Shown piece by piece: positions 8,447 to 32,690 of a stretch of 45,832 nucleotides of DNA; the first letter of the stretch is position 1, and each line of letters opens with the position of its first letter. The notes under the pieces were generated by a model, which ran no database searches, was not told the origin of the DNA, and worked only from the letters and a program-made list of their open reading frames with translations. The translations under genes were made by a program, and so were the position numbers. The stretch is taken from contig CAJCHR010000172.1 in assembly GCA_903970225.1 (NCBI GenBank), forward strand, positions 1-45,832, read 5' to 3'. Source of the DNA: Actinobacteria bacterium 21-64-8 (GTDB lineage Bacteria > Pseudomonadota > Alphaproteobacteria > Sphingomonadales > Sphingomonadaceae).

Positions 8447-10084
8447 ATGGAGACGACGGACGTCCGCCCCGCCTCGGACCAGCACGGCAGGGCGGGAGCG
8501 AACGATCGCCCCGTGAGTGCCGATGCCGTGCCGGTGCCTCCCGTGGTCGATCCGGGCGCAGGCGAGGCTTATCCCACGCCCGGGCGGCGCAAGCTCATCA
8601 CCGCCTCGGTCATGACCGCATCGATGATGAACTCGCTCGACAGCACGATCGCCAACGTCGCGCTGCCGCACATTCAGGGCGCGGTCTCGGCCTCGGCGGA
8701 CCAGATCACCTGGGTGCTCACATCGTACATCATCGCCGCGGCCATCATGACTCCGATGACCGGCTGGCTCGCCGGCAGGTTCGGCCGCAAACGGCTGATG
8801 CTCGCCTCGCTGCTGGGCTTCGTCGCGGCCTCGGCGCTGTGCGGCATGGCGACCGGGCTGTACGAGCTGGTTGCCTTCCGGCTCCTTCAAGGTGCGTGCG
8901 GTGCGGCCTTGGTGCCGATGAGCCAGGCCATTCTGCTCGACATCAATCCGCCCGAGCGACACGGCCCGGCGATGGCGATCTGGGGCATGGGCGCGGTGCT
9001 TGGTCCGATCATCGGTCCTGCGCTGGGCGGCTGGCTGACCGAGAACTACGACTGGCGCTGGGTGTTCCTGATCAACATTCCCATCGGTGCGCTGGCGTTC
9101 GTGGGCATGGTCATGTTCCTTTCAGAGAGCAAGGCTCTCGAAAAGGTGCGGCTCGACTTGTTCGGGTTCGGACTGATCTCGCTCGCGCTCGCCTCATTAC
9201 AGCTGCTCCTTGATCGCGGCCAGCAGCTCGACTGGTTTTCGTCGCAGGAAATCTGCATAGAGGCCGGGCTCGCTGCGCTGTTCTTCTACCTTTTCGTCGT
9301 GCACACGCTCACTGCGCAGTGACCTTTCATCGCGCCTTCGCTGTTCAAGGATGTCAATTTCGTCGCGGCAAGCGTCGTGGGGTTCATGCTTGGCGTGTCG
9401 ATCTATTCGGTGCTCGCGCTCCTGCCGCCGATGCTCGAGAGCCTGATGGGCTATCCGGTGCTTCTGACCGGCCTGGTCACCGCGCCGCGCGGGCTGGGGA
9501 CCATGGTGTCGATGCTCGTCGTCGGACGGATCATCGGACGCATCGATGCCCGTTACCTGATCGGGGCTGGGCTCCTCATCATCGCGCTGTCGATGCGCAT
9601 GATGAGCGGCATTTCGCTGGAGATGAACTCAAACCTCGTGCTCATCACCGGCGTGATCTCCGGGGTCGGCAGCGGCCTGATCTTCGTCCCGCTCTCGACC
9701 GTGGCCTTCGCCACGCTCACGCCCGAGCTGCGCAACGAGGGCGCGGCGATGTTCACGCTGATCCGCAACCTTGGCTCGGCGGCGGGGATCTCGGTGATCC
9801 AGTTCCTCACCATCCGCAACGGTGCGATCGTCCATTCGCGTCTTGCCGAGGGCATTCGCCCGGACAATACGGTGCTCTCCAGCGCCATGCCCAACCTCGA
9901 CCTCGGCTCGATCAGCGCGATAGCGAACATCAACCAGCAGGTGACCCGGCAGGCCTCTATGGTGGCCTATGTGGACTCCTTCCACGCGCTGTTCGTGGTC
10001 ACGCTCCTGTTCGTCCCGCTCGTATTTCTCATTCGGCGATCATCGCGTGGCGCCGGAGCAGCGACCCTCGTCCACATGGATTGA
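8447..10084 (+). pseudogene. DHA2-family (EmrB/QacA-type) MFS exporter, interrupted by in-frame TGA
   Basis: A 14-helix drug:H+ antiporter gene. The first part (ATG 8447; an upstream TTG at 8351 is possible) runs through MNSLDSTIANVALPHIQ (motif D1), a WLAGRFGRKR loop (motif A) and GAVLGPIIGPALGGWLTE (motif C) to a TGA at 9320-9322. The same frame continues directly with PFIAPSLFKDVNF and a normal second half to 10084, so only the stop separates the halves. The homologous position is usually R/Q-x-PF. The gene may be inactive, or the stop may be a sequencing error or be read through. A LysR gene is divergent. Confidence 0.85.
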
Positions 10085-10249
10085 GCCGACACCAAATGCC
10101 CCGATGGTGCATCAAAGGCCGATCGCGGCCCAAAGCGCCGTGGTCGCACGTCAGAACGCCAAGCTTGCCGCGATGAGGAAGGTCCGGCGGTCGCGGTAAG
10201 GCTGCGTACCTTGGCCTATAAGGCCTGCGGCGATGGACGAGTTTGGCAC

Positions 10250-10386
10250 GTAGAGGGTGTTGATCGTCTCAGCCAAAACATTGTCTTAGCTATCGCCGAC
10301 GCTGCCGACCGAGCGCTCGATCCCTGCCTCGGCCAGGCGTTCGGTGTACGTGATGAACACGCGTCCACTACCGGCTTTTGACGTAT
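10250..10386 (-). mobile_element. IS3-family transposase remnant (OrfB, end of integrase core)
   Basis: The minus strand reads YTERLAEAGIERSVGSVGDS, then a TAA stop, then DNVLAETINTLY. This is the IS3-family motif YTERLAEAGIEPSVGSVGDSYDN.LAETIN, with the Tyr codon turned into TAA. The final catalytic Glu region is kept. The HSDRG Asp motif upstream is degraded (HTSKAGS). Beyond LY the similarity ends. No terminal inverted repeats were found. It is a dead fragment. Confidence 0.75.
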
Positions 10387-10510
10387 GCGCCGGCCACGAG
10401 ATGCGCGTAATGTGGATGGGAGGGAGCGAGCCCGGTGCTTTGGTGAGCCAGAGTAAGCTACCAAGACCGTTCCATCGGCGTGAACTGGGGATGTTACGAA
10501 CCAGGCAGCG

Positions 10511-10566
10511 GTGACAGCGGTTCGGCAGACGTCGGCGCAGCCGTTCAACTGTCATAAAAGTTGAAT
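10511..10566. promoter_or_regulatory. two Pho-box-like sequences upstream of pit
   Basis: 10549-10566 reads CTGTCATAAAAGTTGAAT: a perfect first half of the PhoB consensus and a poor second half. 10511-10528, read on the minus strand, is CTGCCGAACCGCTGTCAC with a perfect second half. The Pit start codon is 30 bases after the first site. The same place also holds the dyad TTCAAC/GTTGAA (10544-10565), an alternative operator. Confidence 0.4.
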
Positions 10567-10595
10567 ATGGCCGTGCCGATTAGCGGAGATCAAAC

Positions 10596-12197
10596 ATGAA
10601 CGCGACGATGGCAAACGCGCCCAGTGCTGGCCGGGCAGACTTAGACAGAGGGCTCGGACCGGCCGGCAAGATCGGCTTCCTGGCGGCGATAGTGGTAGCA
10701 ATCGGCTATGTCGCCATGAGCATATTCAGCGACGCCTCAGCGGCTCACGTGCAGGCGACCGCGTTTCTTCCGTTCGCACTGCTGTTCCTAGCGCTGCTGA
10801 TCGCGCTCGGATTCGAATTCGTGAATGGTTTTCACGACACCGCTAACGCAGTCGCGACCGTGATCTACACGAACTCGATGGCTCCTAACGTAGCGGTCGT
10901 CTGGTCGGGGTTCTTCAACTTCCTGGGCGTGTTGCTCTCGACCGGTGTGGTCGCGTTCAGCATCGTCTCGCTGCTGCCGGTCGAACTGATCCTGCAGGTC
11001 GGGTCGGGCGCAGGATTCGCGATGGTGTTCTCGCTGCTGATCGCGGCGATCATCTGGAACCTGGCGACCTGGTACTTCGGCATCCCGAACTCGAGCTCGC
11101 ACACGCTGATCGGATCGATCATCGGTGTCGGCGTCGCCAATGCGCTGCTGCACGGCCGGGGCGGCACCGCGGGCGTCGAGTGGGGACAGGCCACCACGAT
11201 CGGTGAGGCGCTGCTGCTCTCGCCCGTCATCGGCTTCTTCGGATCGCTGCTGCTGTTCCGGATCTCGAAAGCCCTGATCAAGAACAAGGCGCTCTACGAA
11301 GAGCCGAAGAACGGATCACCGCCGCCGCTGTGGATCCGCTGCCTGCTGATCTTCACCTGCACGGGCGTCAGCTTCGCGCATGGATCGAACGATGGTCAGA
11401 AGGGGATGGGCCTGATCATGCTGATCCTGATCGGTACGGTGCCCACCGCTTATGCGCTCAATCGCGCGGTTCCCCCTGCGTACACGGCGCAGTTCCACAC
11501 GGACAGCGCGGCCGCGGTGCACGTGCTGACCACGCACGCCGGTGCCACGACCGGTCCGATCAACGGGCGCGACGTGGTGACCCGGTATCTGACCACGAAG
11601 AAAGCTGACTCCACGACCGTGGGCGGACTGGCCGCGCTGGTCGGTGAAATCGACAAGCAGGTGAGCGATTACGGTACGCTGGCGCAGGTGCCTGCGGCTG
11701 CGACACGCAACATGCGCAACGACATGTATCTCGCCTCCGAGGCGATCAAGCGCCTGACCACCGACAAGACTGCCTTCCCGGACGATCAGGGCAAGGCCCT
11801 CGCGAGCTACAAGAGTGATCTCGATAAGGCGACCCGGTTCATTCCGACCTGGGTCAAGGTTGCGGTGGCCATTGCGCTCGGCCTTGGCACGATGATCGGG
11901 TGGAAGCGCATTGTCGTCACGGTGGGCGAGAAGATCGGCAAGACCCACCTCACCTATGCACAGGGTGGGGCGGCCGAACTCATGGCGATGGCCACGATCG
12001 GACTTGCGGACGGCTTCGGCCTGCCGGTCTCCACGACCCACGTGCTGTCATCGGGCGTCGCTGGCACGATGGCCGCGAACGGCTCGGGCCTTCAGGTGTC
12101 GACGCTGCGCAACATGGTCATGGCATGGGTGCTGACCCTGCCCTGTTCGATGTTGCTGGCCGGAATCCTTTACGTCATCTTCAGCGCGCTGTTCTGA
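10596..12197 (+). CDS. pit: inorganic phosphate transporter, Pit family
   Basis: A 533-residue inner-membrane phosphate permease. It has both PiT signature repeats: GFEFVNGFHDTANAVATVIYT near residue 72 and FAHGSNDGQKGMG near 261, with a late ADGFGLPVSTTHVLSSG segment. A soluble loop of about 120 residues splits the two halves (about 290-410), as in many proteobacterial Pit proteins. It is the low-affinity, proton or metal-phosphate coupled route, complementing pstSCAB 4 kb away. Candidate Pho boxes lie upstream, although Pit is often constitutive. A CorA-like gene follows after 14 bases. Confidence 0.95.
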   Translation: MNATMANAPSAGRADLDRGLGPAGKIGFLAAIVVAIGYVAMSIFSDASAAHVQATAFLPFALLFLALLIALGFEFVNGFHDTANAVATVIYTNSMAPNVAVVWSGFFNFLGVLLSTGVVAFSIVSLLPVELILQVGSGAGFAMVFSLLIAAIIWNLATWYFGIPNSSSHTLIGSIIGVGVANALLHGRGGTAGVEWGQATTIGEALLLSPVIGFFGSLLLFRISKALIKNKALYEEPKNGSPPPLWIRCLLIFTCTGVSFAHGSNDGQKGMGLIMLILIGTVPTAYALNRAVPPAYTAQFHTDSAAAVHVLTTHAGATTGPINGRDVVTRYLTTKKADSTTVGGLAALVGEIDKQVSDYGTLAQVPAAATRNMRNDMYLASEAIKRLTTDKTAFPDDQGKALASYKSDLDKATRFIPTWVKVAVAIALGLGTMIGWKRIVVTVGEKIGKTHLTYAQGGAAELMAMATIGLADGFGLPVSTTHVLSSGVAGTMAANGSGLQVSTLRNMVMAWVLTLPCSMLLAGILYVIFSALF

Positions 12198-12211
12198 GCC
12201 TGTGAGGACGT

Positions 12212-13228
12212 TTGCTGACTGACGATTACGCCAAAGATCGCGGGGGCTCGCCGCAGCCGAATATGGCGAGCCCCTGCTTCGTGTGGTGCTACAGTCTCAC
12301 CGACGAGGGCCAGCGCTCGATCGGGATAGAGGAACCGGCTGCAGAGCGGCCGTTCCGCTGGCTCCATCTCGATCTTTCGGATCAGCGCACCGTCCGCTGG
12401 CTCCAGACGTCGGCAAAGCTGCCGCCGAAGCTCCACGCGCTGATGTCCAGCCGCGACGGGGAAGAACACTTCGCCGTGCAAGACGGCGGGATCGCACTGG
12501 TCGTTCACGATTTCGAGCGCGGACTCGATCCCGGTGCCATCGGCCACATCGGAACCCTCCACCTGGCGCTGGTCGATGGCATGCTGCTCACCGGCCGGTA
12601 CGTTCCGTTGCGCGGTGCCACGTTGATCCAGAGCCGCCTTGCTCTGAGCACGGAGGTCGTCGACGCACCGTCTGCGCTCGCGTTCCTGCTCGGATCGCTG
12701 ATCGACAGCTTCTCGGCGCTCGTGATCGACCTCAACCGCGACCTGCTCAAGACCGAGACCGAACTCCTGGCGGATGAAGCCGCCCCCGACACACGCGAAC
12801 TGGTGTCGGCGCGGCGCCGACTGGCGCAGTTGCACAGGGTGGTCGGCGGTCTTCGCGCGACGCTGATGCGGATCACGCCCGATCCCCAACTCCCCGCATC
12901 GCTCGCTCCGGTCATGATCGAGGCGCAGCCGCGGCTGGCGGCACTCGAAGGAGAGGTCCTGCTGGCCCAACAACAGCTTCGCATGCTGCGCGAGGAGGTG
13001 GATCTCCAGACGGCGCAGCGCACCAACCAGAACGTTTACCTGCTCTCGATCCTGACTGCGATCATGATGCCGGCAACTCTGGTGACCGGGTTCTTCGGAA
13101 TGAACACATCCGGCCTGCCGTTCTCGCAGGGAAGCCATGGTACGCTGCTGGCAACGGGAACGGCGGTGATCGGGTCGGCGGCGACGTATTGGCTACTGAA
13201 GAGGCTGGGGCTCATCCGCAGCCGCTGA
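12212..13228 (+). CDS. CorA/ZntB-family divalent cation transporter
   Basis: A 338-residue CorA superfamily protein. The long soluble and helical N-terminal region is followed by two C-terminal membrane helices. The first ends in the family motif FFGMNTSGLPF (GMN at about 298-300). The TTG start at 12212 has TGAGGACG just upstream; an ATG at 12263 is an alternative. Placement directly after pit suggests a metal partner for phosphate uptake, since Pit carries metal-phosphate complexes. Mg2+ versus Zn2+ cannot be decided from sequence. Confidence 0.9.
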   Translation: MLTDDYAKDRGGSPQPNMASPCFVWCYSLTDEGQRSIGIEEPAAERPFRWLHLDLSDQRTVRWLQTSAKLPPKLHALMSSRDGEEHFAVQDGGIALVVHDFERGLDPGAIGHIGTLHLALVDGMLLTGRYVPLRGATLIQSRLALSTEVVDAPSALAFLLGSLIDSFSALVIDLNRDLLKTETELLADEAAPDTRELVSARRRLAQLHRVVGGLRATLMRITPDPQLPASLAPVMIEAQPRLAALEGEVLLAQQQLRMLREEVDLQTAQRTNQNVYLLSILTAIMMPATLVTGFFGMNTSGLPFSQGSHGTLLATGTAVIGSAATYWLLKRLGLIRSR

Positions 13229-21653: not shown

Positions 21654-22961
21654 TCACATCGGGTTGTCGAGACTGAACAGATCGCGATCCTCGTCATAGG
21701 CAAAGACTTCGGCGTAGCGGCCCCAGTGGGTCACCGCACGCAGCGTCTGATCAGCATAATCTTCCGACATGTGATCCTCGAGTTCGTCGCGGAAACGGCG
21801 CGCTGGTGCCTCGTGGCTAGACCTATCATCGAGAATCCGTCGGATATGCTGGGCAAGCGGCACATGGGCGAGAAGCGCTTGGGCGAAAATTGCTTTGCGC
21901 CGATCGACGTCCGCGTTCGCGTATTGGCGCGACGCCGGCGTCAATTTCACGTCGCCCCCCGACAAATCCGCAAAGCGCATGAGCTGAAGCGTCTCCGCGA
22001 TAGGGAAGAGCTCGTCAATCTCGAGCTGGAGCGAGTCCGCGAGTTCCGCCATGCTTGCGTTGCCGTTGAAGGGCGCGGCATCGACTTCCTCGATCAGGCC
22101 GGCCATCGCATTGGTCGACACGATCGGCAGCGACATTGTGATGCCGGTCCCGGGGAACAGACCATCCTTCCCTGGAAGGGCGACCGGCCTTGCGGTCATC
22201 TGGGCATAGATAGCGTCGACAAGCGCGCGAAACGGCGGATCGAGCCGATCACGTGGCTGCGGCAGATCGACGGTAATTTCCGCCGCGACCCGCCCGGGGT
22301 TCGATGAGAAGACCAGGATGCGATCGCACATCAGCACGGCTTCCTCGATATTGTGCGTGACGATCAGGATCGACTTGATCGGCATTCGCCCTTCCGACCA
22401 CAGATCGAGCAGATCGGTGCGCAATGTCTCGGCGGTGAGGACGTCCAGCGCCGAGAACGGCTCGTCCATGAGCAGCAGCGACGGGTTGACCACGATCGCG
22501 CGCGCCAGGCCGACGCGCTGCCGCATGCCGCCTGATAGCTCTTTTGGATAGGCATTCTCAAACCCGTCGAGGCCGATCAGATCGATTGCGGCAAGCGCCC
22601 GGGTACGGCGCTCTGCGGGGGGCACGCGCTGCGCCTCGAGACCAAGTTCCACATTTTGGAGCACGGTGAGCCACGGAAAGAGAGCGAACGTTTGGAATAC
22701 CATCGAAACACTCGGCGCCCTGCCGGATGCGTCTGGCAGCAGCACTACCTCGCCCTCGCTTGGACGAATGAGGCCGGCGATCGAGCGAAGCAGCGTTGAC
22801 TTACCGGATCCCGACCGGCCTAGCAGACCGACGATCTCGTATTCGTCGAGGGTCAGATCGACGTTTTCGAGTACCTGGCCCGTAGCCCCGGAGCGGCCGT
22901 AGCTGTGGCTGACGCCCCGTACCTTGACGAGTGGGCGAGCGGTCGGCGCGATGGTGGCCAT
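21654..22961 (-). CDS. ABC transporter ATPase with AAA-associated C-terminal domain (NitT/TauT type)
   Basis: A 435-residue ATPase. Walker A GRSGSGKS (48-55), Q-loop MVFQTFALFPWLTVLQNV, signature LSGGMRQR, Walker B LLLMDEPFSALD and VTHNIEEAV match the nitrate/sulfonate/taurine group. Residues about 285-435 form an extra C-terminal domain of the AAA-associated type seen on ATPases that pair with duplicated anion permeases. The permease gene is 24 bases upstream on the same strand. No binding protein is encoded nearby. A Pho-box-like site before the operon suggests a phosphorus-containing anion, which is inference. Confidence 0.9.
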   Translation of the reverse strand: MATIAPTARPLVKVRGVSHSYGRSGATGQVLENVDLTLDEYEIVGLLGRSGSGKSTLLRSIAGLIRPSEGEVVLLPDASGRAPSVSMVFQTFALFPWLTVLQNVELGLEAQRVPPAERRTRALAAIDLIGLDGFENAYPKELSGGMRQRVGLARAIVVNPSLLLMDEPFSALDVLTAETLRTDLLDLWSEGRMPIKSILIVTHNIEEAVLMCDRILVFSSNPGRVAAEITVDLPQPRDRLDPPFRALVDAIYAQMTARPVALPGKDGLFPGTGITMSLPIVSTNAMAGLIEEVDAAPFNGNASMAELADSLQLEIDELFPIAETLQLMRFADLSGGDVKLTPASRQYANADVDRRKAIFAQALLAHVPLAQHIRRILDDRSSHEAPARRFRDELEDHMSEDYADQTLRAVTHWGRYAEVFAYDEDRDLFSLDNPM

Positions 22962-22985
22962 GGGAGTAACTCCGGTCTTGAGACA

Positions 22986-24731
22986 TCAGGCGAGGCGGAG
23001 GCGGCGTTCGGCAAAGGCGTACATCGGTCGCCACACGAGCCGGTTGAATGCGATCACGAACACCGACATCGTGGCGATGCCAAGCGCAACACGCGGATAG
23101 TCGCCGGCCACGGTCGCGTCGGCGATGTAGGAGCCGAGCCCTGCCGCCTCGAGATGGCGATTGCCCCACGAGACCGCTTCGGCAACGATGCTGGCGTTCC
23201 AAGACCCGCCGGACGCGGTCAGCGCGCCGGTGACGTAGTATGGGAAGATCGCCGGCAGCGCGACGCTGCGCCACCACTGCCAGCCCTTCACTCCGAACAT
23301 CGAAGCCGCCTCGCGCATGTCGGTCGGGATGACGCTTGCTCCGGCGATGACGTTGAACAGGATGTACCACTGCGTGCCCAGCACCATCAGCGGCGATAGC
23401 CAGATTCCGGGGCTGAGATGCCAGCGCACGATCGCCAGCACCGCGAACGGAAACAGCACGTTGGCCGGGAACGCGGCGAGGAACTGCGCGACAGGCTGGA
23501 GCCGTTCGGCCCAGCGCGGACGCAGTCCGATCCAGACGCCGATCGGGACCCAGATCACGCTCGCAACCGCGATCAGGACGATCACGCGTAGCAGCGTCAG
23601 GCAGGCGTAGCCGATCGCGATGACAGCGTCGCTCCAGCTCAGCGTACGGCTCACGTAATCGATGATCAGCCATGTCGCAGCAATCAGCGAGATCCCGACC
23701 AGCGCCTTCCAGAGGATATTGCCGATCGGGCTGGCTGCGCGTTCGACCGGGGCCGACTTTGCGCCGGGCATGCGATCGAGCATCATCAGCACCCGGCCGA
23801 GGCCGAGCAACGGCATCATCAGGACCTTGAGCATTCTCGTACGGCGGAACAGGTCGTAGGCCCAAGAGCCGGGCTGCTCGGCACTTGCGGTCTGCTCGAA
23901 ACGATAACGGTCGGCCCATGCGACGATCGGGCGGAAGAAGAGCTGATCGTAAAGCAGGATCAGCACCCCCATTGCGCCCACAGCCCATGCGACGGCGCGC
24001 GCATCCTGCTTCTCGATGGCGAGCGCCAGCCAGGAGCCGATGCCCGGCAGCGCCACGGTGGTGTTGCCGACCGTGATCGCCTCCGAGGCGACGACGAAGA
24101 ACCAGCCCCCCGACATCGACATCATCGCGTTCCAAACGAGGCCGGGGATAGCGAACGGCAGCTCGAGGCGCAGGAAGCGGCGCATCGGCGATAGCCCGAA
24201 CCCGCGCGACACCTCCTCGAGATCGGACGGCACCGAGCGCAGCGACTGATAGAAGCTGAACGCCATGTTCCAGGCCTGACTGGTGAAGATCGCGAACACC
24301 GCTGCGCATTCGACGCCGAGTTGCTGGCCCGGAAACAGATGCATGAAGAAGGTGACGGTGAAGGTGAGGAAGCCGAGGATCGGCACCGACTGCAGGATGT
24401 CGAGCGCCGGCACGATGATCTGTTCCGCCCGCTTGCTGCGCGCCGCCATCGTCGCGACGATCAAGGTGAAGATCAGCGAGGCGAGAAGAGCGGCGAACAT
24501 CCGAAGCGTGGTGCGCAAGGCGTACGAGGGCAAATTCCGGGGATCGAGCGCGACAGGCGTGATCGAAAGCCGTGAGAGCGGCTCCGCAACGCCGACGGCG
24601 CCGCGCACGACCAGAACCGCTCCTCCGGCCAAGAGGATGAAGGCAATCAGGTCGGCCATGTTCGGCGGCGTTACGCGCAGGATTCGAGAGAAGGGTCGAA
24701 CCGCGCGAGCGGGAAGGCTTCGTGCTTTCAT
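22986..24731 (-). CDS. ABC transporter permease, duplicated (fused) anion-type
   Basis: A 581-residue inner-membrane protein made of two binding-protein-dependent permease modules in tandem (about 70-280 and 370-570). Each has an EAA-like loop: LEEVSRGFGLSPMRRFLRLE in the first and MREAASMFGVKGWQWWRSV in the second. This is the duplicated permease architecture of COG4986-type anion transporters. It is followed by its ATPase gene. The ATG at 24731 has only a weak GGTAAG ribosome site. The substrate is unknown. Confidence 0.9.
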   Translation of the reverse strand: MKARSLPARAVRPFSRILRVTPPNMADLIAFILLAGGAVLVVRGAVGVAEPLSRLSITPVALDPRNLPSYALRTTLRMFAALLASLIFTLIVATMAARSKRAEQIIVPALDILQSVPILGFLTFTVTFFMHLFPGQQLGVECAAVFAIFTSQAWNMAFSFYQSLRSVPSDLEEVSRGFGLSPMRRFLRLELPFAIPGLVWNAMMSMSGGWFFVVASEAITVGNTTVALPGIGSWLALAIEKQDARAVAWAVGAMGVLILLYDQLFFRPIVAWADRYRFEQTASAEQPGSWAYDLFRRTRMLKVLMMPLLGLGRVLMMLDRMPGAKSAPVERAASPIGNILWKALVGISLIAATWLIIDYVSRTLSWSDAVIAIGYACLTLLRVIVLIAVASVIWVPIGVWIGLRPRWAERLQPVAQFLAAFPANVLFPFAVLAIVRWHLSPGIWLSPLMVLGTQWYILFNVIAGASVIPTDMREAASMFGVKGWQWWRSVALPAIFPYYVTGALTASGGSWNASIVAEAVSWGNRHLEAAGLGSYIADATVAGDYPRVALGIATMSVFVIAFNRLVWRPMYAFAERRLRLA

Positions 24732-25184: not shown

Positions 25185-26096
25185 TCAGCGCACGCCGATT
25201 GTATCGGAGTAAAACCGATGATCTCCATTCCGTTCCCCGGCATGCTCGACCGCGTCAAGGAAGGCGGCGATGGGCTTGCTGCTCTTCCGCTCACGCAGGC
25301 AGCAGACGTGGATCGATGTGACGACAGGCTCACCTTCGATCATGAGCGGGTGCAGCCGTTCGTCTGAGATGTATTCCGATTGGGACACGGTTCCCACACC
25401 CAGGCCCCGGGCCACCGCTTCGCGCAGGGCTTCGCGGCTCCCAATCTCCATTGCCACGCGCGGACTGAGCGAGAGCCTTGCAAAGCCTTCGTCGAGCGCC
25501 CGGCGGGTCGTCGATCCGGGTTCGCGCATGAGCAGGCGTTCGCGGGCCAGTTCCTTCAACGAGACCGACGCCTGCCGGGCAAGCCGATGATCCCGATGGA
25601 CGAAAGCGATAACCGGGTACGTCGCATAGGGCCTCATGTGGAAGCGTTCGTCGGATACGGCTTTCGCGATGACGCCGATCTCGCAGGTGTAGTCCTCCAG
25701 ATCGCGGAGCACGCTCTCCGAATTGCCCAGTCGCATAGACAGGTGCATGTCCGGATACCGGTTGTGATAGACCTCGATCATCTCGATGACATGATAGGGG
25801 CTCACCGCACCCAGACGCAGCGAGCCGCGGCGCAAGGCACCGCCTTCGCCGAGTATCAGCCGCGCGTCGTCCTCAAGACCGATCATGCGGCGCGCGATTT
25901 CCAGGAACTCTTCCCCAACGGACGTCAGTTCGACGCGCCTGCCGCGACGTTCGAACAGCTCGACGCCGTGCTCCTGCTCGAGCGCTTGGATCTGCGAGGT
26001 GATCGTGGTCTGGCTCGTCTGCAGGACGCGAGCAGCAGCGGTGAAGCCGCCATGACGCACGACAGCGAGAAAGCTTCGGATCTGCGTCAGTGTCAT
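25185..26096 (-). CDS. LysR-family regulator of the phosphonate operon
   Basis: A 303-residue LysR protein, divergent from the phosphonate operon. The HTH reads LTQIRSFLAVVRHGGFTAAA, then QTSQTTITSQIQALE; the effector domain includes GSTTRRALDEGF and ALREAVARGLGVGTV. It resembles the LysR group associated with aminoethylphosphonate catabolism (TIGR03339 type). The ATG at 26096 starts directly at MTLTQIRSF; an ATG at 26156 would add 20 residues. Likely an activator of the operon responding to a phosphonate or its aldehyde; the ligand is unknown. Confidence 0.9.
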   Translation of the reverse strand: MTLTQIRSFLAVVRHGGFTAAARVLQTSQTTITSQIQALEQEHGVELFERRGRRVELTSVGEEFLEIARRMIGLEDDARLILGEGGALRRGSLRLGAVSPYHVIEMIEVYHNRYPDMHLSMRLGNSESVLRDLEDYTCEIGVIAKAVSDERFHMRPYATYPVIAFVHRDHRLARQASVSLKELARERLLMREPGSTTRRALDEGFARLSLSPRVAMEIGSREALREAVARGLGVGTVSQSEYISDERLHPLMIEGEPVVTSIHVCCLRERKSSKPIAAFLDAVEHAGERNGDHRFYSDTIGVR

Positions 26097-26115
26097 GGTC
26101 GGACTCAGCGAAAAA

Positions 26116-26184
26116 TTCGATGGATCGAACGTATAAGCACGGCGCTTTCGATGCAATTCCCGTCATACGTCGCGCTTAAAGCGC
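26116..26184. promoter_or_regulatory. two palindromes in the LysR-phnX divergent promoter
   Basis: TTCGAT-GG-ATCGAA at 26116-26129 is a perfect dyad and a good LysR operator candidate; a TTCGATGCAA half-like copy occurs 23 bases later. GCGCTT-A-AAGCGC at 26172-26184 abuts the first possible phnX ATG (26185), which argues that translation really starts downstream at 26215. No convincing Pho box is present here. Confidence 0.5.
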
Positions 26185-26214
26185 ATGCCGTTCCCTGATT
26201 TGGATCGGCCGAAA

Positions 26215-27063
26215 ATGATGCACGTCGACACAGCCCTGCCAGCGCCTTACCGCATGTACGACGGTCCGTTGACTACGGCGATCTTCGATTGGGCCGGCAC
26301 GGTGCTCGACTTCGGATGCCTCGCGCCGGTCAAGGCGTTCGTTGCCGCGTTCGAGCAGCACGGTGTCGCCATTTCCGAAGCCGAAGCGCGCGTGCCGATG
26401 GGGGCGGCCAAGCGCGAGCATATCGAACAGCTCCTCGCGATGCCGGCGGTGCAGGAGCGCTGGACCCGGCATCACGGTGCTGCTTCGACCCAGGCCGATG
26501 TCGGCGCGCTCTATGCGGTGTTCCTGCGCAGCGATGCCGAGAACGTCGCTCGTTATAGCGACCTCATCCCCGGTGCGCTGGAGGCGATCGATGCCCTGCG
26601 TGCCCGAGGAATCGCGATCGGAAGCACAACCGGCTATCCGCGCGAAGTGATGACGGCGCTCGTCCCGCTCGCGCACGCGCAAGGCTATCGGCCCGATCAC
26701 CTCTGCACCGCCAGCGACGTCGCGCGGGGGCGGCCTTGGCCCGACATGGTGCTCGCCAATGCCGTCGCGCTCCGAGCGCCCGATGTGCGGGCCTGCGTGG
26801 TCGTCGATGACAGTCCCAGCGGCCTTGCGTCCGCCCGCGCAGCCGGGATGTGGGCGGTCGGGATAGCGGCCAGCGGCAATGAGGTCGGGCTGTCGCTCGC
26901 CGACTGGTCGGCTCTCGATGATACTGCACGCCGTGAGCATCTCGCCCCGGCTCGCGAGCGCCTGCACGCCGCTGGGGCGCAATTCGTGATCGACAGCCTC
27001 GCCGACCTGCTTCCCGTCATCGACGCGATCGAACAGCGCCTGCGCGCGGGCGCCGCGGCATGA
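26215..27063 (+). CDS. phnX: phosphonoacetaldehyde hydrolase (phosphonatase)
   Basis: A 282-residue HAD-superfamily enzyme that cleaves phosphonoacetaldehyde to acetaldehyde and phosphate. Motifs: the nucleophile loop FDWAGTVLDFG, the cap with EARVPMGAAKREHI carrying the Schiff-base Lys (K of AAK, equivalent to Lys53), then STTGYPREVM and the VVVDDSPSG acidic motif. Several ATGs exist (26185, 26215, 26218, 26254). I chose 26215 because a palindrome occupies the bases before 26185. It overlaps the dehydrogenase gene by ATGA. No phnW transaminase is in the window. Confidence 0.93.
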   Translation: MMHVDTALPAPYRMYDGPLTTAIFDWAGTVLDFGCLAPVKAFVAAFEQHGVAISEAEARVPMGAAKREHIEQLLAMPAVQERWTRHHGAASTQADVGALYAVFLRSDAENVARYSDLIPGALEAIDALRARGIAIGSTTGYPREVMTALVPLAHAQGYRPDHLCTASDVARGRPWPDMVLANAVALRAPDVRACVVVDDSPSGLASARAAGMWAVGIAASGNEVGLSLADWSALDDTARREHLAPARERLHAAGAQFVIDSLADLLPVIDAIEQRLRAGAAA

Positions 27064-28178
27064 CGGGCTGGACCTTTCACAATCCGGTCAACGTGACCTT
27101 CGGCATCGATGCGTTCGACGGGATCGGGCGCCTGGCCAATGGCCGCAGCTATGTCCTCGTCACTTACCCGGGCTCGCTGTTCGAGCGGCTTGCCGAACGT
27201 GTCGCGGCTTTGGCGGGCACGCCGCTCGCCGTCATCGACGCGATTGAGCCCAATCCTTCACTCGCCAGCCTCAATTCGATTTGTGCGCAGCTCGGCGCCT
27301 TGCCCCAACCGCCGGAATTGCTGATCGCGCTGGGCGGTGGCTCGGTGATCGATTCTGCGAAGTTCCTAGCCGCCGGGCACGGCCAGTGGCAGCCGGTCCT
27401 CGACTATATCGAGAATGGGCGTTCCATAGGGTGCGCAGCGCTACCCATCCTTGCGATCCCGACCACGTCGGGAACCGGAAGCGAGGTCACCAGCTGGGCG
27501 ACGGTCTGGGACCCGGAGAGAGACCGCAAGCTCTCGCTCGCCAGTGCCGACCTCTATCCCGAGACGGTGGTGGTGGACCCCCGGCTGGTCGTCGGCCTGC
27601 CGTGGCAGATCACTCTTTCCAGCGGTCTTGATGCGCTTTCGCACGCGCTCGAAAGCCTCTGGAACGTCAACGCCAACCCGGTAACGCGCGGCTTCGCCAT
27701 TCCCGCCGCACGCGACATCATGGACGCGCTGGTCCGGTTGCACGATGATCTGGATGACCTCGATGCACGCAGCCAGGCCGCGTTCGGATCGCTTCAGGCC
27801 GGCCTCGCCTTTTCCAACACCAAGACCGCGCTCGCGCACAATATCTCCTATCCGATCTCCCTCAGGCACGGCGTCGCGCATGGCATCGCCTGTTCGTTCT
27901 GCCTGCCCGATGTCATGGCCGCCGCGCTCGGCACGGATCCGGTCTGCGATGCCGCGATCGGGCAGATCTTCGGCGATATCGCCTCGGCGCCTGCGCGCCT
28001 GCGCGCTTTCCTCGATACGATGGGCATCGCCGGTGATCCGGCCGACTACGGCATCGGCCCGGGCGAGTGGCGGGAGATCGTCACGGATGCCTTTGCCGGG
28101 CCACGCGGCCGCAACTTCATCGGATCGATCGACCGCTTCCCATTCGGCTCGCCGGTCCTCGCTGCCGAAAGGACATGA
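27060..28178 (+). CDS. phosphonate-associated iron-containing alcohol dehydrogenase
   Basis: A 372-residue group III alcohol dehydrogenase. The NAD-binding motif is LLIALGGGSVIDSAK; PTTSGTGSEVTSWA binds the nicotinamide side. Metal ligands are visible in GLDALSHALES (Asp and His) and LRHGVAHGIACSF (His). It resembles the family tied to phosphonate metabolism (TIGR03405 type). Overlap with phnX on one side and with the MFS gene on the other implies one coupled operon. The likely reaction is interconversion of 2-hydroxyethylphosphonate and phosphonoacetaldehyde; in this catabolic setting oxidation is expected. That substrate is inferred. Confidence 0.88.
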   Translation: MTGWTFHNPVNVTFGIDAFDGIGRLANGRSYVLVTYPGSLFERLAERVAALAGTPLAVIDAIEPNPSLASLNSICAQLGALPQPPELLIALGGGSVIDSAKFLAAGHGQWQPVLDYIENGRSIGCAALPILAIPTTSGTGSEVTSWATVWDPERDRKLSLASADLYPETVVVDPRLVVGLPWQITLSSGLDALSHALESLWNVNANPVTRGFAIPAARDIMDALVRLHDDLDDLDARSQAAFGSLQAGLAFSNTKTALAHNISYPISLRHGVAHGIACSFCLPDVMAAALGTDPVCDAAIGQIFGDIASAPARLRAFLDTMGIAGDPADYGIGPGEWREIVTDAFAGPRGRNFIGSIDRFPFGSPVLAAERT

Positions 28179-29632
28179 TGATGGCGCCGACCCAAGTCGT
28201 CCGGACGGACGCGTTGACCCGCCTCGACAACATGCCCTGGACGCGTTTCCACACGACGCTCACGATCGCGCTGGGGATCGGCTGGGCGCTCGATTCCTTC
28301 GAAACCAACATCATCGGCAGCGTCTTCGCGGTGCTCAAGGCGCAGTGGCACCTGACTTCGGCGCAAGGTTCGCTCGCCGTGAGCGCCTGGGTGGTCGGCA
28401 TGCTGATCGGGGCGATCGGTTTCGGCTATCTCGCCGACCGTTTCGGTCGCAAGCGCCTCTTCCTGGCGACACTGCTCTGGTACGCGCTCTTTAGCATCGG
28501 CACGGTCTTCTCGTGGGACTACAATTCGTTCCTGTTCTTCCGCGTGATGACGGCGCTTGCGGTGGGCGGCGAATATTCCGCCGTCACCGCCACGATGGGA
28601 GAGTTCTTCCCGAAAGCGCATCGCGGACGCACCGATGCACTGATCCTTTCCGGCTTCCCCCTGGGCGCGATGGCATCTGCCGGAATTACCTGGATCCTGC
28701 TTGATCAGCTGCCACCCGGAATCGCGTGGCGTCTGGGTTTCGGTTTCGGCACGACGCTCGCGCTCCTGTTCTTCTGGATACGCCGCACGGTGCCGGAATC
28801 GCCGCGCTGGCTTCTCCAGCAGGGCCGCATCGACGAGGTCGAGCGGATCGTTGACCAGATTGCGGCGAGCGCGGCGAAGCAGGGTTTCGTCCGCGAGGCT
28901 GGGCGGCGCTATCCCCTTACGGAATACGCTCCGCAGCAGGCTGCCGTCTTGCGCAACCTGCGCACGCTGCTCGGAGCCTACCGGGCGCGCTGTGCGCTTG
29001 CCAGCGCGCTGAACTTCTCCCAGGCCGCGGTGGTCTACGGCGTGCTGTCGCTGATGGCGCTGGTCATCCTGCCCTATCTGAAGGTGCCGGCGGCCGACAT
29101 GCCGCTCTACTACGTCTTCGGTAACGCGGCCGCCTTGCTGGGCGGACTGACCGGAGCATACATGGTCGATGCCTGGGGACGGCAGAAGTCGCTCGTCGCC
29201 AGCTACAGCCTCACCGTGCTCGCCGTGATCCCGCTTTATGCGATCATGAACCTGCCGGCGGTGGTCCTGAGCTATTGCCTGATCCAGTTCGGCGTCACCT
29301 GGGCCTACATCACCGCTTATGTCGTCTCGGCCGAAGTGCTGCCCACGCACGCCCGCGCGACCGGCCTCGGCATATCGGTCGCGGTTGGAAGAGTCGGCGC
29401 CATGTTTGCACCGGTTCTGTTGACTTCGGCTTACCAGAGCTCGGGTACGCCGGCATTCGCGCTGCTCACGCTGATCCTGCTTGCGCTGCCTGGCCCCGTT
29501 GCCGCATTTGTATGGTGGTGGCTGGGCAAGGAGACCCGCGACATTTCACTGGAAGAAGGCAGCGTCGCGCCGTCGCTGCAGTCTCATCTCCCGTTCGAGG
29601 CAAGCAAAGCACCTCTCGCAGGGGCGGGTTAG
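28175..29632 (+). CDS. MFS transporter, putative phosphonate permease
   Basis: A 485-residue, 12-helix major facilitator protein. It has the motif A loop GYLADRFGRKR, ALAVGGEYSAVTATMGEFFP in the fourth helix region, RTVPESPRWLLQQGR in the central loop, and AWGRQK in the second half, all typical of the metabolite:H+ symporter and sugar-porter-like groups. The ATG overlaps the dehydrogenase stop; two further ATGs follow at once. Third gene of the phnX operon, so it probably imports the operon's phosphonate. No such substrate is established for this family as far as I know. Confidence 0.9.
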   Translation: MMMAPTQVVRTDALTRLDNMPWTRFHTTLTIALGIGWALDSFETNIIGSVFAVLKAQWHLTSAQGSLAVSAWVVGMLIGAIGFGYLADRFGRKRLFLATLLWYALFSIGTVFSWDYNSFLFFRVMTALAVGGEYSAVTATMGEFFPKAHRGRTDALILSGFPLGAMASAGITWILLDQLPPGIAWRLGFGFGTTLALLFFWIRRTVPESPRWLLQQGRIDEVERIVDQIAASAAKQGFVREAGRRYPLTEYAPQQAAVLRNLRTLLGAYRARCALASALNFSQAAVVYGVLSLMALVILPYLKVPAADMPLYYVFGNAAALLGGLTGAYMVDAWGRQKSLVASYSLTVLAVIPLYAIMNLPAVVLSYCLIQFGVTWAYITAYVVSAEVLPTHARATGLGISVAVGRVGAMFAPVLLTSAYQSSGTPAFALLTLILLALPGPVAAFVWWWLGKETRDISLEEGSVAPSLQSHLPFEASKAPLAGAG

Positions 29633-30371: not shown

Positions 30372-30642
30372 ATGGGACCAGATGACGTCTATCAAGGCCG
30401 GATCTGGGAGGTCAATGTCTTCTGCGAACCCGCCCATGGATTGATCGTCGCCAAGATCGAGCATCCCCGATGCCGAGCAGCTCGTCTCCATTCACGGCTG
30501 GAGTGGGTCCGAAAGTACCGACGATCCGCGCTATCCCAGGTCGGCGACCGTTAAGGCACCGCATGAACTGCTCGAGAACCAGCCTCTGTGGGAAGAGCTA
30601 TGGCTGTTCAGTTCATCGCCAGAAGCGCTTCATTCCGATTAG
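30372..30642 (+). pseudogene. CYTH-domain protein remnant (C-terminal half, frameshifted)
   Basis: The plus strand reads YQGRIWEVNVFCEPAHGLIV, then AKIEHP, then after a one-base shift DAEQLVSIHGW and TDDPRYPRSATV, ending at a TAG at 30640-30642. The pattern WEVDVF..GLVVAEIEL...DDPRY is the C-terminal half of short CYTH (class IV cyclase/triphosphatase-like) proteins. The N-terminal EIERKFL part is absent. Its end overlaps the end of the intact CYTH-CHAD gene on the opposite strand. Confidence 0.68.
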
Positions 30643-32088
30643 ATCATGATGGGCGTGTTCGGCGTCGGCCAGCAGGTGCTTCCTATCGCTCTTCTTGCTG
30701 GCCGCGAGGATCGCATCGGCATCGGCTATGCCCAATTCCTCGAGCAACGCGCGCCCGCTGGCGAGGTCGTTCAGATGGCCGAGCGCGGTCTGGAGATCCT
30801 CTATTGCTTCGAGAAATGCTTCGCGACGATGTACCGCCTTTTTGCCCGGGTAAAGATCCGCAAAGAATTCCGCCGTGTAGCGCAGTTTCTTGCCGACAAT
30901 CCTAACCCGGTGGCGCTCATGTTCGTTGAGTTTGGCAAGATGCTTGCCGCGACGCTTGATCTTGCGTCTGAGCTGATCCAGCATCTCAGCCGCAGTCTCC
31001 CGCGCGGGGGCCTCCCGAAGCTCGATCGTATCGTCACGCTTTCGCCATCCGCCGATCGATAGCCATTCGACGAAATCAAGCATGAGCCCGCGGACGGCGT
31101 CCGAATTCAGCGTTTGCTCGACGGTGTCATAGCGCTGGGTTCGCGCGGCGTGCAGGCGCTCGAGTGCCTGCTCATGGTCGATCTTCTCGATCATCACATC
31201 GACATCGCGAACCTTGCCAAGCGTTCCGGCAAGTGAACGGAAGTCCGACTGGAAGCGGTCGAGATCCGGGCCCGCCAGCATATCTTCGAACGTAGACAGA
31301 GCCGAGCGGAGCCGGCGCAGCCCCACGCGGGCCTGATGCAGCGATGCAGGTGATCTGGAGGAAAGAAGATTGTCCTCGTTAAGCCGGAACTGGCGGATGC
31401 AGGAGCCTGCCACTCTCTCGAAAAGGCTCGCGGTATCGCCGCCGCGCGAGAGCGCGATCGGCTCCGCCTTCACCGACCGCGATCGCTTACCCGCGAGAAG
31501 CGCATAGCCGCGTTCGCTCTTGGTCTGCACGCCAAGGCGGACCGGAACGAGGGAGGCCAAATGCTGCGCCAGATCGAACAGCGCCTCGCGGCTGCCGTCC
31601 AGCAGCTCGAGTTCGAGCTCGGAGATGGGTGCGGCCTTGTCACCGACGACGGCTCGGCCCCGATCGGCCACGAGTTCGATGCGGCCCGTTCCGTTCTGAT
31701 GAACAACGGTGGTTCGATTGATTTCGACCGTGAAGGCCGGGGCGAGGCTTTCCGCCGTCCTGTCGGTCAGCGTCTCGGCAAGCGCTGGCGCTGCATCGTC
31801 AAGCACCGGCGTGTCGCTTTCCAGCGCGCGCTCCCACTCGCCTCTCGCGAAGAGGCTGGCGGCAGCGTTGCTTTCGGTCTTGATGGTCTGGATCCGCTTG
31901 CCGGCCGAGGTTCGGATACGCAGCGACAGGCCGGCGGCTTTAAGCGCCTGTGTCTCGGTATCGAAATAGACCGAGAGCTGATCCCGCGAAACGGGATCGT
32001 GATCAGCGAAGATGGGATCGGCGAGCAATGTCGCGATGTCTGCCAGGCCAAGCTGGAGCTTCAGCTCGACCTCTTCTGCGTCGCTCAC
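30613..32088 (-). CDS. CYTH and CHAD domain-containing protein
   Basis: A 491-residue two-domain protein. The N-terminal CYTH domain (about 5-200) begins EVELKLQL, the EXEXK motif of triphosphate tunnel enzymes, and may hydrolyse inorganic triphosphate. The C-terminal CHAD domain (about 225-485) is a His/Arg/Lys-rich helical bundle (HQARVGLRRLRSALS, HRVRIVGKKLRYTAEFF); CHAD domains bind polyphosphate. The GTG at 32088 has GGAGGAGAG upstream and starts just before the CYTH motif; the longer frame from 32208 is unlikely. It fits the polyphosphate theme set by PPK2. Confidence 0.92.
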   Translation of the reverse strand: MSDAEEVELKLQLGLADIATLLADPIFADHDPVSRDQLSVYFDTETQALKAAGLSLRIRTSAGKRIQTIKTESNAAASLFARGEWERALESDTPVLDDAAPALAETLTDRTAESLAPAFTVEINRTTVVHQNGTGRIELVADRGRAVVGDKAAPISELELELLDGSREALFDLAQHLASLVPVRLGVQTKSERGYALLAGKRSRSVKAEPIALSRGGDTASLFERVAGSCIRQFRLNEDNLLSSRSPASLHQARVGLRRLRSALSTFEDMLAGPDLDRFQSDFRSLAGTLGKVRDVDVMIEKIDHEQALERLHAARTQRYDTVEQTLNSDAVRGLMLDFVEWLSIGGWRKRDDTIELREAPARETAAEMLDQLRRKIKRRGKHLAKLNEHERHRVRIVGKKLRYTAEFFADLYPGKKAVHRREAFLEAIEDLQTALGHLNDLASGRALLEELGIADADAILAASKKSDRKHLLADAEHAHHDLIGMKRFWR

Positions 32089-32126
32089 GCTGCTCTCCTC
32101 CGGGTTGAGACCAACCTTAGCGCATG

Positions 32127-32146
32127 ATGGGAGAAGAAGCTCCCAT
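32127..32146 (-). promoter_or_regulatory. 7-bp stem-loop upstream of CYTH-CHAD
   Basis: ATGGGAG-AAGAAG-CTCCCAT is a perfect inverted repeat about 40 bases before the GTG start. It may be an operator or a 5'-leader hairpin. No known consensus fits. Confidence 0.3.
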
Positions 32147-32266
32147 TGTCCGATACGTGGACGAAGCCGCGGGCGCCGCAATTTCTTTTCACTGGCGGAA
32201 CCGTCCAATCGTCACAATCGCTTGATAGGGCAGGAGACCAGCCTCGGCCCGAGGCAGGTCAGGCGA

Positions 32267-32690
32267 ATGCGAGTATCGGTCGATCAAACAGTTTGGTGCT
32301 CTCCCTTATCGCAGCGAAGATGACGGGACGCTTCGCATCTTGCTGATCACCTCGCGCGACACGCGCCGCTGGATCATCCCGAAGGGAAACCCGATCAGCG
32401 GCCTTCGCCCTCACGAGACTGCAGCACAGGAAGCGTTCGAGGAGGCCGGGGTCCGGGGTGCAGTGAACCGTACCGCCTTGGGCGCGTTCACGTACACCAA
32501 GCACGGCAAAGACGGCCGGCAGCGCAGTGCGCATGTCAGAGTCTATCCGCTCGCGGTGACCGAGATCGCGGAGACGTGGCCCGAACAGCACGAGCGGGAA
32601 CAGCGCTGGTTCGAGGTTCATGCGGCCGCCGATGCGGTTGACGAGGAAAGTCTCCGCCATCTTATCCGCGGCTTCCCGGCGCGGGTCTAG
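32267..32690 (+). CDS. NUDIX hydrolase (diphosphoinositol/polyphosphate-type), apparent 5' frameshift
   Basis: The conserved part runs SIKQFGALPYR, LLITSRDTRRWIIPKGNP and the NUDIX box region LRPHETAAQEAFEEAGV, to LRGFP at the end. This resembles the small NUDIX group that includes diphosphoinositol-polyphosphate hydrolases. The conserved frame starts after a TAG at 32226 and contains no ATG, GTG or TTG before the TTG at 32340, which lies inside the domain. The ATG at 32267 (MRVS) is one base out of frame; removing one G near 32278-32279 joins it to SIKQF. So the gene may be damaged or the read wrong. If started at TTG 32340 it is 116 residues. Confidence 0.75.

Follow-up and report, generated by a model that had tools for sequence, protein, structure and literature searches.

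A phnX operon with an iron-type alcohol dehydrogenase and no detectable PhnW as a candidate hydrolytic pathway for 2-hydroxyethylphosphonate

The hydrolase PhnX requires phosphonoacetaldehyde, which is usually supplied by the transaminase PhnW from 2-aminoethylphosphonate. Here, we analyzed a stretch of 45,832 nucleotides from Actinobacteria bacterium 21-64-8, which the GTDB places in the alphaproteobacterial family Sphingomonadaceae (assembly GCA_903970225.1, contig CAJCHR010000172.1, positions 1 to 45,832 of the forward strand). This whole stretch is hereafter called the window (G000:C172 in our numbering, where G denotes genomes, C contigs, and L loci). It carries a phnX operon in which an iron-type alcohol dehydrogenase (ADH) might act as the entry enzyme of the pathway in PhnW's stead, by oxidizing 2-hydroxyethylphosphonate (HEP). 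Similarly to the PhnW-PhnX pathway, PhnX is clustered with a LysR-type regulator and a transporter, and phosphonoacetaldehyde would be the intermediate. In contrast to that pathway, the window has the iron-type ADH instead, no PhnW exceeds the cut-off in the assembly, and the LysR protein belongs to another clade.

Iron-type ADHs of the PhpC/FomC kind are phosphonoacetaldehyde reductases of phosphonate biosynthesis. They share with the window the enzyme superfamily and the pair of HEP and phosphonoacetaldehyde; however, they work in the opposite direction and stand with a phosphoenolpyruvate (PEP) mutase and a decarboxylase, while no PEP mutase exceeds the cut-off in the genome studied here. 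The PhnY-PhnA route, which passes through phosphonoacetate, has the same ADH family in 17 of 80 loci (see below), but the window uses PhnX and the assembly has no PhnA match over the cut-off. The phpC gene is named in PMC9381506. In clusters combining HpnW or PbfD with PhnX (PMC10590968, PMC11203657), something other than PhnW likewise serves as the entry enzyme for PhnX, and PMC11203657 describes a PhnX whose operon has HpnW and no PhnW. In these clusters, however, a flavin enzyme acts on an amine, whereas the window has an NAD(P)-type iron ADH, presumably with an alcohol as substrate. HEP, the substrate proposed here, is also broken down by carbon-phosphorus (C-P) lyase, which releases ethylene (PMC5649143); in contrast, the route proposed for the window is hydrolytic and would give acetaldehyde without ethylene, and the assembly contains no PhnJ.

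The initial annotation had described phnX, the ADH gene, and a major facilitator superfamily (MFS) gene overlapping by ATGA, together with a divergent LysR gene, and we found this layout as described:

26185-27063, plus strand: phnX, phosphonoacetaldehyde hydrolase (TIGR01422; later in-frame starts are possible)
27060-28178, plus strand: iron-type (group III) ADH, proposed HEP dehydrogenase (TIGR03405, Pfam Fe-ADH)
28175-29632, plus strand: MFS permease, proposed importer (PF00083/PF07690; assigned at the superfamily level only)
25185-26096, minus strand: LysR-type regulator, proposed phosphonate sensor (PF03466/PF00126; assigned at the superfamily level only)

Both junctions, phnX/ADH and ADH/MFS, overlap by ATGA, and all three frames are open. 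The LysR gene, on the minus strand, starts with an ATG at 26096 and extends to 25185; an alternative TTG at 26156 would give a longer protein.

The PhnX protein scored 324.3 bits against TIGR01422 (curated cut-off 220), with 3iru and the phosphonatases 2iof and 1rql as the closest solved chains. It carries D35, C45, M72, K76, and H79, which we take to be spaced like D12, C22, M49, K53, and H56 of the Bacillus cereus enzyme and to form the active-site set of nucleophile Asp, Schiff-base Lys, Cys, Met, and His. The ADH reached 475 bits against TIGR03405 ("iron-containing alcohol dehydrogenase PsrA"; curated cut-off 423.7), and AdhE-type chains are listed among its distant relatives. For comparison, we used 86 ADHs, comprising the best 80 of the 171 relatives found in a scan of species genomes plus six more. 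Residues D191, H195, H260, and H274, presumably the metal ligands of iron-type ADHs, are kept in 86, 85, 86, and 86 of the 86 aligned rows, respectively. An E-value of 1e-126 with TIGR03405, which lies at about the family cut-off, was reached by 82 of the 86 proteins; the four that fell short include L122 (413 bits) and L123 (276 bits). From these sequence features, we regard the operon as intact and both enzymes as belonging to active types.

The initial annotation had seen no PhnW in the operon and had named a co-regulated phnW elsewhere as a finding that would speak against its interpretation. A genome-wide search gave nothing over the cut-off in the assembly (best scores 94.4 versus 360.8 bits for TIGR03301 and 72.6 versus 400.8 bits for TIGR02326). 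Also below the cut-off in the assembly were the best matches to the HpnW/PbfD-type flavin oxidase (TIGR03364; 60.6 versus 285.1 bits) and to PEP mutase (117.4 versus 319.55 bits), and the C-P lyase protein PhnJ had 0 matches there, with a positive Escherichia coli control. PbfA was judged by family naming only: the genome has three class III aminotransferase genes, whose best scores were ArgD or HemL-like. Thus, with PhnW, HpnW/PbfD, PhnJ, and PEP mutase all not over the cut-off, the assembly shows no known way of making phosphonoacetaldehyde apart from the ADH. The assembly (4.09 Mb in 525 contigs) is 96.7% complete and 5.5% contaminated; because it is incomplete, the relatives weigh more.

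HEP is the alcohol of phosphonoacetaldehyde, and since the genome shows no other known source of this aldehyde, we consider it very probable that the ADH, with NAD(P)+, would oxidize HEP to phosphonoacetaldehyde. In the pathway that we propose, the MFS protein would import HEP, and PhnX would cleave the resulting aldehyde into acetaldehyde and phosphate, pulling the unfavorable oxidation. Hydrolysis of phosphonoacetaldehyde is the established reaction of the PhnX family. The divergent LysR protein might sense HEP or phosphonoacetaldehyde and act at a TTCGATGGATCGAA site. The whole hydrolytic mechanism, which has a comparative basis, appears probable, this grading and those of the ADH step and of the MFS import being matters of judgement.

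The comparative basis comes from the neighbors of the ADH in the 80 loci. These were mapped by tblastn with reference proteins taken from the loci, accepting PhnX within 3 kb of the ADH, PhnA and PhnY when both lay within 8 kb, and PhnW within 8 kb; the counts are lower bounds, as some loci are short. PhnX was found near the ADH in 10 of the 80 loci and PhnA together with PhnY in 17, while PhnW was found in none. PhnA and PhnY were verified by cut-off at one locus (L098). The partners of the ADH family are thus PhnX in some loci and PhnA-PhnY in others; PhnX and PhnY have phosphonoacetaldehyde in common, and its alcohol, HEP, is the substrate that these associations suggest. The comparison set consisted of 38 other PhnX loci from the class sample, and the ADH was present in none of them. 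PhnW lay near 10 of these loci and a flavin adenine dinucleotide (FAD) oxidase was found in 17, counts that are again lower bounds, as some stretches end near PhnX (e.g., L199-L201). Ten of the 17 FAD oxidases were scanned, and all 10 were over the TIGR03364 cut-off. Together, the 17 PhnA-PhnY loci, the lack of PhnW near the ADH, and the lack of the ADH in the other PhnX loci support the core idea of the initial annotation, namely that the ADH feeds PhnX by oxidizing HEP.

PhnX and the ADH are also joined in four relatives from the family (L119-L122), which, with the window and the 10 of the 80 loci, gives 15 cases. None of the 15 had PhnW linked, compared to 10 of the 38 other PhnX loci (Fisher p 0.046). 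PhnW was not over the cut-off in 12 of the 15 genomes, and seven (the window, G253, G163, G144, L044, L113, and L115) were without PhnW, HpnW, PhnJ, and PEP mutase; the G253, G163, and G144 genomes are 99-100% complete. Among the 17 PhnA-PhnY genomes, 10 were without PhnW and nine of those 10 also without HpnW, with PhnJ being present in four of the nine (L048, L071, L095, and L103). Only 4 of 298 sampled genomes of the family, including the one studied here, passed the TIGR03405 cut-off, with G234 (413.5 bits) just below, and thus the ADH gene is accessory in the family.

Several observations weigh against HEP oxidation as the source of the aldehyde. A majority of the ADH loci (53 of 80) had neither PhnX nor PhnA-PhnY inside the limits; in L083, which is among these, PhnX matched weakly at a distance of about 7 kb from the ADH. 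PhnW is present in three of the 15 ADH-PhnX genomes (L040-L042, Burkholderiaceae) and the HpnW/PbfD type in five (G234, L039, L043, L045, and L109, the last at the same locus), so that eight of the 15 have another known source of the aldehyde, elsewhere or adjoining. Of these, L043 comes from a cultured relative, Sphingomonas kyeonggiensis DSM 101806. The assembly of the genome itself is fragmented, incomplete, and contaminated to the extent given above. A missing PhnW was also considered as proof on its own and rejected, as PhnX without a nearby PhnW is common. Finally, the ADH of a biosynthetic-looking cluster, L123, proved to be a distant cousin that scores under the cut-off (276 bits) and groups with the outgroup in the tree described below.

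The loci in which the ADH has only an ATP-binding cassette (ABC) transporter or no partner were followed at the genome level, with 49 genomes searched for the 53 loci (L053, L062, L069, and L080 were left out). PhnA was over the cut-off in 41 of the 49 genomes and PhnX in three, the baseline in the class sample being 43 and 39 of 385 genomes, respectively. This excess of PhnA fits the HEP idea, but we give it little weight because many of the rows are Reyranella kin and some of the PhnA genes adjoin PhnW (e.g., G690). In many Reyranella loci within L046-L094, the ADH precedes a PhnD-type gene, with no adjoining PhnX, PhnA, or PhnY. A different arrangement is seen in the Rhizobium locus L109 (8001-11132), where the ADH, an HpnW-type FAD oxidoreductase, and PhnX are consecutive, perhaps representing two entry enzymes that share one hydrolase.

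The descent of the proteins was followed in quick trees of the ADH, PhnX, and LysR, with support from the Shimodaira-Hasegawa-like approximate likelihood ratio test (SH-aLRT) only and no bootstrap. The rows linked to PhnX occupied three places of the ADH tree: one was a 12-row clade that includes the window (96% SH-aLRT), another held two Acidobacteria, and the third a single Rhizobium; the well-supported branches alone force two changes. The outgroup of this tree comprised 8 of 20 rows, the 20 being read from 24 loci; two of its rows (L014 and L018) show extreme branches and an unusual composition, probably because their frames were misread, and the outgroup columns of the alignment are rough. 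In the PhnX tree, these rows also occupied three places, with the same 12-row clade at 99% and the well-supported branches forcing three changes; here, the Acidobacteria fell among the PhnW-linked enzymes and the Rhizobium among the FAD-oxidase-linked ones. ADHs and PhnX proteins of differing descent have thus probably been joined more than once, and such repeated joining argues for a common function.

The L123 cluster (8999-12601, minus strand), from a relative in the same family, encodes a PEP mutase with a cytidylyltransferase-like domain, a phosphonopyruvate decarboxylase, and the ADH, and judging by these genes it likely makes HEP. We had considered it as a third pillar of the HEP argument and demoted it to a hint, given the 276-bit score and the placement with the outgroup. 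Its ADH has Q at the position of H195, which the other 85 rows keep.

The same evidence bears on what else the ADH of the window might do. One possibility is that it reduces acetaldehyde, the product of PhnX, to ethanol, in which case the true substrate of the pathway would be 2-aminoethylphosphonate and phnW would have been lost from the assembly. Reduction of acetaldehyde is known for other iron-type ADHs and the assembly is indeed incomplete; however, the PhnY-PhnA route ends in acetate without forming acetaldehyde, and because of this the ADH would have no acetaldehyde to reduce in the 17 of 80 loci where it stands with them. An acetaldehyde reductase is also difficult to reconcile with its absence from all 38 other PhnX loci, 10 of which have PhnW, or with PhnW lying near none of the 80 ADHs and being over the cut-off in only 3 of the 15 ADH-PhnX genomes. 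We therefore regard this role as improbable.

We see still less chance that the ADH reduces surplus phosphonoacetaldehyde to HEP, as the PhpC/FomC-type enzymes do in biosynthesis, with the MFS protein exporting the product. Reduction is what would be expected of the L123 cousin, whose best family, although below the cut-off, is TIGR03405 and which adjoins a PEP mutase and a phosphonopyruvate decarboxylase, but that enzyme sits far off in the tree and carries Q in place of H195. Moreover, the genome studied here has no known source of phosphonoacetaldehyde, and PhnX, which is encoded together with the ADH, would break the aldehyde down. The ADH could also, alone or with an enzyme encoded elsewhere, derive phosphonoacetaldehyde from another phosphonate such as an HEP ester or a longer hydroxy-phosphonate. 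Genes for PF01663, PhoD, and CehA/McbA proteins and for TonB receptors beside several related operons hint at extracellular esters, yet tblastn found no such gene in the window, and HEP is the sole alcohol from which a one-step oxidation leads to phosphonoacetaldehyde, which makes this explanation unlikely as well.

For the pathway preferred here, in which HEP is taken up and oxidized for PhnX, the transporter slot directly 3' of the ADH is informative. The MFS protein of the window had TIGR00895 as its best NCBIfam match (176.4 bits, below the cut-off of 418.55), and none of the 25 families shown reached its cut-off. Its nearest solved structures are those of SLC22 carriers, with weaker similarity to SV2 and phosphate transporters, a result that does not indicate its substrate. 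A relative of this protein occupies the slot in 6 of the 80 loci and in L119, while L120 and L121 have an OPA-like MFS protein there, the OPA label meaning TIGR00881 as best hit, below its cut-off. The 17 PhnA-PhnY loci have an OPA-like MFS protein in 10 cases and a PhnD-type gene in five (within 9 kb), and PhnD-type genes lie within 8 kb of the ADH in 46 of the 80 loci. Since unrelated importers occupy one slot, an import role for the slot is likely, and uptake of HEP by the MFS protein of the window seems reasonably probable. The initial annotation had considered such a role of an MFS protein to be new. The role remains plausible, but it is not new in kind, as AepP, a GlpT-related MFS protein, is a 2-aminoethylphosphonate permease (PMC8316502) and thus also imports a phosphonate. 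AepP belongs to the OPA family, whereas the MFS protein of the window does not (35 bits for TIGR00881 versus 176.4 for TIGR00895), even though OPA-like proteins are found in the slot of L120 and L121. What would be new, if borne out, is the non-OPA MFS branch and HEP as its substrate.

Some related operons additionally contain TonB receptors together with phosphoesterases (PF01663 or PhoD), or CehA/McbA-type hydrolases; none of these genes was detected in the window by tblastn. The bacteria carrying such operons may free HEP from esters, with the esterases presumably being secreted.

The LysR protein of the window matched TIGR03339 (phn_lysR) best among NCBIfam families, with 298.7 bits, below the cut-off of 341.1. 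The LysR tree separated 41 ADH-linked proteins, coming from PhnX-, PhnA-PhnY-, and ABC-transporter-type loci, from seven LysR proteins of ADH-free PhnX loci, with a branch support of 99%. The tree took 12 of the 41 ABC-type loci, chosen by hand, and its seven ADH-free rows represent five PhnW and two FAD-oxidase loci, some with long branches. Furthermore, 64 of the 80 loci have a window-like LysR gene no more than 3 kb from the ADH. These data suggest that the regulator travels with the ADH and its substrate. The initial annotation had reported one perfect dyad between the LysR gene and phnX; the dyad is there, but the gap of 88 bases holds two:

26116-26129, no strand: perfect dyad TTCGATGGATCGAA, candidate LysR operator, with a core that recurs in relatives
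26172-26184, no strand: perfect dyad GCGCTTAAAGCGC, which abuts the phnX ATG and may be due to chance

Among 3000 random 88-mers of the window, 0.8% had two or more such dyads, and among 3000 shuffles 0.4% did. The 11-mer TTTCGATGGAT, which has one mismatch to the window, was found in 4 of 214 loci (L040, L043, L045, and L119), directly upstream of the LysR start; in L043, L045, and L119, it lies in the gap between the LysR gene and a TonB receptor gene. Only the dyad at 26116-26129 is thus backed by relatives, whereas that at 26172-26184 is not among the dyads listed for them.

Upstream of the LysR gene, positions 21654-24731 (minus strand) encode an ABC transporter pair, consisting of a double permease and an ATPase with a C-terminal AAA-associated domain (PF09821), with no sign of a tie to phosphonates. 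A CYTH-CHAD protein and a small NUDIX protein (30613-32690) adjoin the operon and may be chance neighbors. CYTH-CHAD and NUDIX domains are often associated with polyphosphate or nucleotide phosphates. In five ADH loci from Roseovarius and its kin (L106, L107, L108, L110, and L111), the contig ends 3.6-3.9 kb past the ADH, in L107 directly past the second permease gene, and Rfam detected no ribosomal RNA in these five loci.

Our literature search found no pathway of this kind and no HEP dehydrogenase in catabolism, including in the accessible sections of PMC8154272, PMC10708946, PMC6754898, and PMC9426474, and neither "hydroxyethyl" nor "HEP" was found in those of a review of phosphonate degradation (PMC10574752). 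The bacterial use of HEP that the search did turn up proceeds by C-P lyase with ethylene release (PMC5649143). In PMC12366243, HEP oxidation to phosphonoacetaldehyde is mentioned as a less probable activity of another enzyme, PbfF, which turned out to be a racemase. The search did not find where the NCBIfam name PsrA originates in the literature; a publication behind it could make the present assignment less novel.

More broadly, we see an even chance that the LysR protein and the ADH form the core of a widespread, undescribed hydrolytic HEP module, in which PhnX or PhnY-PhnA would be the partners, the importers would be interchangeable, and, in some sphingomonads, TonB receptors and presumably secreted phosphoesterases would free HEP from esters. 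In high-molecular-weight dissolved organic phosphorus, methylphosphonate and HEP have been described as the phosphonates of highest abundance (PMC8931226). If the proposed pathway is true, cells would gain phosphorus from HEP without ethylene, also in genomes without C-P lyase, and gas yields or phnJ counts would overlook this hydrolytic use, which would represent a C-P-lyase-independent sink of HEP. It would also assign a substrate to a named family, TIGR03405, for which our literature search found no characterization, and the LysR protein together with TIGR03405 would provide a marker pair for finding such bacteria.

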